In this document: piece after piece, positions 4,908-63,713 of the stretch | How positions within the stretch are numbered: the first letter of the stretch is position 1 | Layout: the number at the start of each line of letters is the position of its first letter | Source of the DNA: Ignavibacteria bacterium | Lineage (GTDB): Bacteria > Bacteroidota > Ignavibacteria > Tepidaquicellales > Tepidaquicellaceae | Assembly: GCA_036262055.1 (NCBI GenBank) | Contig: DATAJP010000002.1 | Span: forward strand, 124,001-188,000 | Length of the DNA stretch: 64,000 bases | Direction of reading: 5' to 3' | Program-made: the position numbers and the translations under genes | The notes under the pieces: model-generated | Told to the model about the DNA's origin: nothing | The model's input: the letters and a program-made list of their open reading frames with translations, nothing else | The model's database searches: none

Positions 4908-4936
4908 GGGATTCCCGCTTTCGCGGGAATGACTTC
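4908..4936. repeat. dRS3-like dispersed palindromic repeat, copy 1
   Basis: A 29-base element between two convergent genes, starting GGGATTCCCGC and ending GCGGGAATGACTTC. Its core is ATTCCC-N8-GGGAAT. It can form a hairpin and might act as a bidirectional terminator here. Near-identical copies lie at 56855, 58827 and 63685. Confidence 0.85.
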
Positions 4937-56854: not shown

Positions 56855-56883
56855 GGGATTCCCGCTTCCGCGGGAATGACTTC
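56855..56883. repeat. dRS3-like dispersed palindromic repeat, copy 2
   Basis: Same 29-base element as at 4908, with core ATTCCC-GCTTCCGC-GGGAAT. It lies between ccmB and the lipoprotein gene, inside what otherwise looks like one operon. Confidence 0.85.
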
Positions 56884-58826: not shown

Positions 58827-58855
58827 GGGATTCCCGCCTGCGCGGGAATGACTTC
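58827..58855. repeat. dRS3-like dispersed palindromic repeat, copy 3
   Basis: A 29-base copy with core ATTCCC-GCCTGCGC-GGGAAT, in the short gap between bamD and the thioesterase gene. Confidence 0.85.
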
Positions 58856-61963: not shown

Positions 61964-62620
61964 ATGAAAAACAAATATTTATTCATTTTACTCTTCGGGT
62001 TTATTGTGCTGAGTTCGTGTAATAAAAAAGAAGAGCCGCAGTTTGTTCCTCCGAATCAGGAATTTAATGCCGATGCTGAAAAAGAAAGATTAGCGCGTGA
62101 GGAATTTGAACGGCTGAAAAAGCTTCAGGAGATTACGGGTGATTCTACTACTCACATTGATTCCATTACATCGCATATTGATTCGACTGCAATAAGAGAT
62201 TCACTTGCCGCCGCAGAGAAAAAAAAGAAAGACGCAAAGGTTGTTCAGAAAGAAAAAGAGCTTAACAAGAAGGTTACCAATCCGAAAACCACAATCGATG
62301 ATTATCTTGAATACATAAAACGCGGAACAGATGAGGACGGCAACTTTGACAAGAACATGAATAACGCTGCAAGCTTGTGGGAAGGACGCTCCAAAGAAAA
62401 ATTCAAGTCTGCGTATAAAAACGTAAAGAAGTTTGTAATACTTTCCGAACCTGAAGTTGTTTCGCAGAAAGGAAACAGCTCAACGGTTAAAGTTAAGCTG
62501 AAGCAGGTTGAAGAAGTCAACGGCAAGGAGCAGGAAACCGAGATGACGGTAACATATAATCTTGTTTCAGACGATACAGGAAAATGGAAAATCAAGAATA
62601 ACAAAATTTCAAAAAAATAA
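61964..62620 (+). CDS. Hypothetical lipoprotein, charged linker plus NTF2-like C-terminus
   Basis: A 218-residue lipoprotein (lipobox LSSC, Cys19). Residues about 30-110 are a highly charged, Lys/Glu-rich, probably helical linker (EKERLAREEFERLKKLQEI, AAEKKKKDAKVVQKEKEL). The C-terminal half (IDDYLEYIKRGTDEDG, SAYKNVKKFVILSEPEVVS, VTYNLVSDDTGKWKIKNN) looks like the DUF4878/NTF2-like fold found in lipoproteins. No function is known. It starts divergently from gdhA and is followed after 43 bases by sucD. Confidence 0.75.
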   Translation: MKNKYLFILLFGFIVLSSCNKKEEPQFVPPNQEFNADAEKERLAREEFERLKKLQEITGDSTTHIDSITSHIDSTAIRDSLAAAEKKKKDAKVVQKEKELNKKVTNPKTTIDDYLEYIKRGTDEDGNFDKNMNNAASLWEGRSKEKFKSAYKNVKKFVILSEPEVVSQKGNSSTVKVKLKQVEEVNGKEQETEMTVTYNLVSDDTGKWKIKNNKISKK

Positions 62621-62663: not shown

Positions 62664-63680
62664 ATGAGCATTCTTGTTAATAAAAAGACTAAAGTTGTTG
62701 TTCAGGGAATTACAGGCGGTGAAGGAACATTCCACGCAAACCAAATGATTGATTACGGAACAAAAGTTGTTGCAGGCGTTACACCGGGAAAAGGCGGAAC
62801 GAAATTCAATGACAAGATTCCGATTTATAATACAGTTAAAGATGCAGTTAATGAAACAGGAGCAGATGCGTCGGTTATTTTTGTTCCTGCGCCTTTTGCT
62901 GCCGATGCAATTATAGAAGCAGCTGATGCGGGTATCGATGTGATTGTTTGCATCACCGAAGGAATTCCCACCAAAGATATGATTAGAGTTTACGATTATA
63001 TTAAACACTTAAATACAAACGGCAGAAGTGTTCGATATATAGGACCAAACTGTCCGGGGATAATAACTCCTGATGAATGTAAAATCGGCATAATGCCGGG
63101 GTTCATTCACAAAAAAGGAAGAGTGGGGTTGATTTCAAGAAGCGGAACGCTGACTTATGAAGCTGTAAATCAATTAACAAAGCTTGGTATCGGACAGTCA
63201 ACATGTATCGGTATCGGTGGCGACCCTGTGATTGGAACACGATTCATTGATGCAGTAAAATTATTCAATGAAGATAAAGATACTGATGCGATTGTTATGA
63301 TAGGTGAAATCGGCGGAAGCGCTGAAGAAGAGGCGGCATATTACATAAAGAAGAATGTAAAGAAACCTGTTGTCGGATTTATTGCAGGGAAAACTGCTCC
63401 TCCCGGAAGAAGAATGGGACACGCGGGAGCGATTATTTCAGGAGGCAAAGGAACTGCCGATGAAAAACTTGCGACTATGCGTGAGTGCGGAATCATTACT
63501 GTTGATTCTCCTGCTGACATCGGAGCAGCAATGCAGAAAGCTCTGGAGAAGTTGTATAAAAAGTCTTCGAAAAAAACTTTAAAGAAGTCAGGTAAGAAAG
63601 TTACTAAAAAATCTTCTGCAAAGAAGACGAAGAAGGTTGTTAAGAAAATGACAAAGAAAACAGCAAAGAAGAAAAGATAA
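62664..63680 (+). CDS. sucD: Succinyl-CoA synthetase alpha subunit with lysine-rich C-terminal tail
   Basis: A 338-residue alpha subunit of succinate-CoA ligase, which makes ATP/GTP while converting succinyl-CoA to succinate in the TCA cycle. [18 protein letters not shown] and [17 protein letters not shown] form the CoA domain, [20 protein letters not shown] is diagnostic, and His253 in [13 protein letters not shown] is the phosphorylated histidine. The normal enzyme would end near residue 298. Residues 299-338 add a tail of ten KKxx-like units with 21 Lys in 40 residues, like a histone-H1 or HU extension. sucC is not adjacent in this window. Confidence 0.94.
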
Positions 63681-63684
63681 GAAT

Positions 63685-63713
63685 GGGATTCCCGCCTTCG
63701 CGGGAATGACTTC
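63685..63713. repeat. dRS3-like dispersed palindromic repeat, copy 4
   Basis: A 29-base copy with core ATTCCC-GCCTTCGC-GGGAAT. It lies 4 bases after the sucD stop, in the 47-base gap before folB, where its hairpin could end sucD transcription. Confidence 0.85.

Follow-up and report, generated by a model that had tools for sequence, protein, structure and literature searches.

Several bacterial proteins carry disordered, lysine-rich C-terminal domains of histone H1-like make-up, among them AlgP and PhaF of Pseudomonas: Peptides of the AlgP tail are reported to bind DNA, the spacing of granules needs this tail, and PhaF has been proposed to link granules with the chromosome (PMC9239181). Lineage-restricted, lysine-rich C-termini on conserved proteins are also described for actinobacteria, where the lysine repeats of TopA and the tails of HupB and Ku are reported to stabilize contact with DNA (PMC7398561). 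In other bacteria, disordered lysine-rich sequences, including polyacidic, serine- and lysine-rich (PASK) regions, are reported to bind polyphosphate non-covalently (PMC12345225).

The window analyzed here, a stretch of 64,000 nucleotides from an Ignavibacteria bacterium (GenBank assembly GCA_036262055.1, contig DATAJP010000002.1), encodes a predicted alpha subunit of succinyl-CoA synthetase (SCS), SucD, with a C-terminus of comparable composition. This protein shares its core, fold, and family models with known SCS alpha subunits (NF004230 and TIGR01019; E. coli 1jkj) and differs from them by 40 extra C-terminal residues, given that phmmer matches to solved chains stop at or before residue 298. 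Like the AlgP and PhaF domains, its tail is lysine-rich, H1-like in make-up, and predicted to be disordered; unlike these granule- or DNA-associated proteins with their KPAA repeats, it is of KKxx type, contains neither proline nor any KPAA-type repeat, and belongs to an enzyme of the TCA cycle. It resembles the actinobacterial tails in that a conserved protein carries a lysine-rich C-terminus restricted to one lineage, but TopA, HupB, and Ku already bind DNA whereas SucD has no known DNA role. With the polyphosphate-binding regions it shares disorder and lysine richness, yet PASK regions are also polyacidic and the SucD tail is devoid of acidic residues; the main text of that report does not mention SucD. 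Within the open-licence literature, we found no title or displayed abstract describing such a SucD tail, so that the enzyme is known while its lysine tail is apparently unreported there.

A succinyl-CoA synthetase alpha subunit with a lysine-rich tail

The sucD open reading frame runs from an ATG start to a TAA stop and encodes 338 amino acids (Table 1). Its product scores 468.9 bits with the NF004230 model (cut-off 336) and 456.7 with TIGR01019 (cut-off 353.2), and both Pfam domains, CoA_binding and Ligase_CoA, are above cut-off. His253 in the GHAG motif, which we take to be the phosphorylated histidine of SCS alpha subunits, is invariant across 29 aligned SucD sequences. A gene for the partner subunit SucC (over cut-off with TIGR01016) is present in the same genome at a location away from sucD (G000:C3:643644). 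By homology, the open reading frame is an SCS alpha subunit of predicted enzyme activity.

Table 1. Coordinates of sucD and of its parts in the window.
Feature	Position	Strand	Basis
sucD, full-length SCS alpha subunit gene including the C-terminal extension	62664..63680	+	ORF; family models
SucD catalytic core, residues 1-298	62664..63557	+	phmmer to solved chains; AlphaFold2 confident core
SucD tail rich in lysine (residues 299-338; ten units, each led by KK)	63558..63677	+	sequence, pLDDT

An AlphaFold2 model based on 29 sequences shows the core with confidence (mean pLDDT 83.8) in a fold that matches E. coli SCS alpha, extends the last helix to residue 307, and falls below a pLDDT of 50 at residues 309-333 and 335-338, so that most of the tail is predicted to be disordered. 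The tail comprises 21 Lys and 1 Arg with no Asp or Glu in 40 residues and, taken alone, has no Pfam match. A sequence-only reading of this DNA had described a 40-residue KKxx tail from position 63555; the tail is real, while this start lies one codon too early, on Tyr298. The same reading had seen a resemblance to H1-like proteins, which is borne out by tails rich in Lys, Ala, Ser, Val, and Thr, by the predicted disorder, and by regularly placed KK doublets.

The tail is exceptional within the genomes that we sampled. Among 347 open reading frames of at least 60 amino acids from 384 kb of the window's genome (the window and 16 further stretches), SucD ranks first, with Lys at 21 of the last 40 positions, followed by a protein with 11; the runner-up 40-residue stretch anywhere in these frames contains 13 Lys. 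At the background Lys frequency of the sampled frames (8.1%), the probability of at least 21 Lys is 3.6e-13 per 40-residue stretch. For G184, another member of the class, SucD again leads, with 18 Lys ahead of 11 for the next of 368 open reading frames (400 kb in 20 stretches, one of them picked to contain sucD). Among the frames sampled from these two genomes, the lysine tail is specific to SucD, and a genome-wide habit of lysine tails was discarded for them.

At the DNA level, the tail shows no tandem array by Tandem Repeats Finder and uses both Lys codons (12 AAG, 9 AAA). The DNA pattern encoding KKxxKKxxKK occurs five times in the window, each time inside the SucD tail (shuffle mean 0.07). 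Across the whole genome it has 15 matches, equal to the 15 of a backward-pattern control and thus no excess by count alone; these comprise the 5 in SucD, 4 in other open reading frames, and 6 in short frames. The four others are a secreted-looking lysine-rich protein, a bL17-like ribosomal protein, an E2 linker, and the N-terminus of a 517-residue frame, names that are our own reading except for the model-based E2.

Distribution of the tail across Ignavibacteria

We scored a SucD as tailed if its extension had at least 10 residues, a net charge of +5 or more, and at least 25% Lys plus Arg. All 29 genomes in the family of the window's genome have a SucD and all 29 carry the tail; close relatives without any tail, which the sequence-only reading had named as the observation that would speak against it, did not turn up. 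In the sister family, all 14 SucD examined are tailed (15 genomes had matches). For the class Ignavibacteria, 391 genomes were searched and 366 gave a SucD match; 125 of the 144 best matches examined, a sample biased toward window-like SucD in which families f9, f15, f20, f21, f23, f24, f27, f28, and f29 are not counted, are tailed and 19 are not. Since these 19 lack the tail by this rule, it is dispensable in some members of the class. Untailed proteins come mainly from families f10 (9/31), f22 (4/15), and f7 (2/2). Tailed and untailed orthologues coexist within f10 and within f22, which makes the role of the tail directly testable in these families. Two f5 proteins scored as untailed by the 25% rule (G056 and G074) have long Lys/Ala/Pro tails with net charges of +13 and +14 and were taken as tailed in the tree and in the tallies of polyphosphate kinase PPK1 below (127 tailed, 17 untailed).

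Outside the class, no SucD tail was found in the best 30 of 60 genomes searched from another class of the phylum, nor in six other out-of-class sequences. In a separate set of 80 named loci, 6 of the 78 that could be scored are tailed (assemblies L002-L006 and L008; four, namely L002, L004, L005, and L008, are titled Ignavibacteria or Ignavibacteriales and two Bacteroidetes) and 72 are untailed; the remaining two show no tail. On a tree of SucD cores with 164 rows, tail presence requires at least 11 changes. Many forks of this gene tree are weak, and five out-of-class rows lacking the tail nest inside the class, so gains and losses of the tail cannot be firmly counted.

The partner subunit does not share this feature. 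No basic tail was found on SucC at 28 loci of the family or at 15 further class loci readable to a normal C-terminus (20 were taken; L294, L304, L305, L307, and L308 gave no normal SucC end). As a separate observation, the SucC proteins of both genomes of genus g9 (G014 and G015; L245 and L251) bear a Glu-rich acidic extension, and SucD has a long basic tail there; the other 26 of the 28 family SucC proteins lack charged tails of either sign.

Selection on charge, lysine content, and spacing

Among the 125 tailed SucD, the tail has a median length of 35 residues (range 11-134) and a median net charge of +17, and its length shows no trend with GC content (rho 0.03). Besides Lys, these tails are rich in Ala, Ser, Val, and Thr, with more Ala and Pro in some members of the class such as L170 and L171, and they are almost free of aromatic residues (Phe 0.3%, Tyr 0.1%, Trp 0.0%). 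Lys is favored over Arg more strongly in tails (93%) than in cores (72%), with Arg equaling or exceeding Lys in two f4 tails (G117 and G091). Among orthologues, the overall composition in terms of charge, Lys content, and KK spacing is kept while length and exact sequence drift.

Lys is retained from 35% to 65% GC as the share of AAG among its codons rises from 0.20 to 0.61, and the median Lys plus Arg fraction stays at 0.46-0.50 across four GC bands, although it drops modestly with GC3 (rho -0.31, P 0.0004). We compared codons in six independent pairs of ungapped, equal-length tails with at least 50% tail identity, a choice that somewhat favors conservation. Where either side has Lys, 94 codons are identical, 33 differ synonymously, 4 exchange Lys and Arg, and 9 show other changes; the synonymous share of changes is 72% (33/46) against about 21% expected, and against a neutral range of 12-25% for kappa from 1 to 5 (P from 3e-20 to 4e-11). 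The non-Lys codons of the same pairs comprise 41 identical, 35 synonymous, and 42 non-synonymous cases. Because non-Lys positions evolve this fast, no specific contact is indicated. An origin of the tail in microsatellites or base composition was discarded in view of the missing DNA array, the persistence of Lys between 35% and 65% GC, and the selection on Lys codons.

Lysines are also arranged non-randomly. In 117 tails of at least 20 residues, KK doublets are more frequent than in shuffles (451 versus 302), and runs of at least five occur 21 times, fewer than the roughly 55 of shuffles. Spacings of 4 and 5 are mildly favored (z 3.0 and 3.7), and those of 2 and 3 are strongly depleted (z -15.8 and -14.2). 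Of the 117 tails, 109 have Lys or Arg as their last residue. It is well supported by these comparisons that the tail is under selection for charge, lysine content, and spacing rather than for exact sequence, and equally so that SucD bears a selected, polycationic appendage that is predicted to be disordered.

Possible functions of the tail

SucD belongs to central metabolism and is widely conserved. A selected, H1-like tail on it throughout the lineage implies an additional role or location for SCS in Ignavibacteria. Our preferred, tentative reading is that the tail serves as a disordered, polycationic, H1-like electrostatic tether, selected to hold the SCS complex non-specifically on a polyanion. 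The most likely partner would be nucleic acid, either nucleoid DNA or RNA and ribosomes. Such docking would localize succinyl-CoA turnover and the production of nucleoside triphosphates at the polyanion, with catalysis remaining in the ordinary SucD core. The class-wide presence of the tail, the selection on Lys codons, the retention of Lys across GC contents, the KK spacing, the specificity for SucD, the predicted disorder, and the precedents of AlgP, PhaF, and TopA all argue for a tether. Against it stand the 19 of 144 class members without a tail, the modest drop of Lys plus Arg with GC3, the fast evolution of non-Lys positions, and the nature of the precedents, which are DNA-binding or granule proteins and not metabolic enzymes.

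A tail selected for charge would also suit a TCA-cycle metabolon in which SCS is held by an acidic protein or at an anionic membrane, and the pairing of acidic SucC with long basic SucD tails in one genus points in this direction. We nevertheless regard this as unlikely, if worth keeping in mind, because SucC lacks any charged tail in the rest of the family, the near absence of aromatic residues speaks against membranes or protein partners, and the genome's E2 component that has a charged linker comes nearest, below cut-off, to the E2 of pyruvate dehydrogenase. Docking on the E2 of 2-oxoglutarate dehydrogenase was dropped for the same pyruvate dehydrogenase-like nature of the E2 that was found. 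The substrates of SCS (CoA, succinate, nucleotides, and phosphate) are all anions, and a conserved charge on the catalytic subunit could attract them to the active site or adjust solubility or assembly. That the tail alters the enzyme in this manner seems rather improbable to us, as the 30 SucD from another class and the 72 untailed named ones work with no such extension, and a length anywhere from 11 to 134 residues gives no hint of a placement fine-tuned to the active site. Polyphosphate, which the sequence-only reading had listed as a ligand, would suit a lysine-rich sequence, and PPK1 is encoded in the window's genome; still, this candidate has lost ground and now appears improbable. No PPK1 match at E 1e-60 was obtained for 23 of 127 tailed genomes, including all 7 examined from f4 (some genomes are incomplete, and the search covered PPK1 but not PPK2), while all 17 untailed genomes have one. 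A dependence of the tail on PPK1 is thus unsupported, and from gene content PPK1-made polyphosphate would not be required for the tail.

The preference for Lys over Arg could also reflect acylation of the tail lysines, as a target or a sink, by succinyl-CoA that SCS itself produces. This is very improbable in our view, because charge suffices in the two f4 tails with at least as much Arg as Lys and a sink would have no need of regular KK spacing. Finally, poor conservation of exact sequence and length would be expected of a low-complexity extension that evolves neutrally or of an artefact of assembly, an explanation that is largely refuted and to which we give hardly any credence given the selection on Lys codons, the persistence of the tail at high GC, and its presence in many separate assemblies including the six named ones.

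A bolder version of the nucleic acid tether, which we consider a long shot, would make SCS across most of the class a docked regenerator of ATP or GTP at the nucleoid or the translation machinery, with the product handed on by the nucleoside diphosphate kinase (NDPK) Ndk. Binding of succinate thiokinase by NDPK has been reported (PMC4668074), and SCS deficiency has been linked to mitochondrial DNA depletion, with the authors urging caution for their mice (PMC5126846). These links, together with the ndk and gatA neighborhoods and the PDB title described below, motivate this bolder version but do not track the tail. If true, it would mean that a TCA-cycle enzyme has been recruited as a nucleoid- or RNA-associated factor of nucleotide supply, a parallel to the connection of SCS with the maintenance of mitochondrial DNA.

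Gene neighborhood and additional observations

The loci of the window's order that we read have a lipoprotein-like gene upstream of sucD and folB and folK downstream, all named by our own reading. This lipoprotein-like gene lies directly upstream of sucD at 61964-62620 on the forward strand, likewise in L002, L003, L004, L006, L008, L087, and L103, and resembles BamM only weakly, with a score far under the cut-off. By motif searches of short flanks, ndk follows sucD in 82 of 144 class members and gatA precedes it in 46 (e.g., L005, L130, and L287). This arrangement belongs to other families and is absent from the gene order of the window; since it adjoins untailed sucD as well, it does not follow the tail. 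PDB entry 9a6e is titled as a GATB-SUCD model, going by its title alone; SucD is not mentioned in PMC10090944, which we checked for this pairing.

A secreted-looking protein of 163 residues (L219:1168-1659, reverse strand; G000:C3 near 697070) has a lysine-rich middle with KKKYSGKKKYTSKKK-like repeats and matches neither NCBIfam nor Pfam models. A palindromic element, CCCGCCTTCGCGGGAATGAC, is present in the window in four copies with at most 2 mismatches (4914-4933, 56861-56880, 58833-58852, and 63691-63710; none expected in shuffles), the last of which begins 11 bases past the sucD stop.
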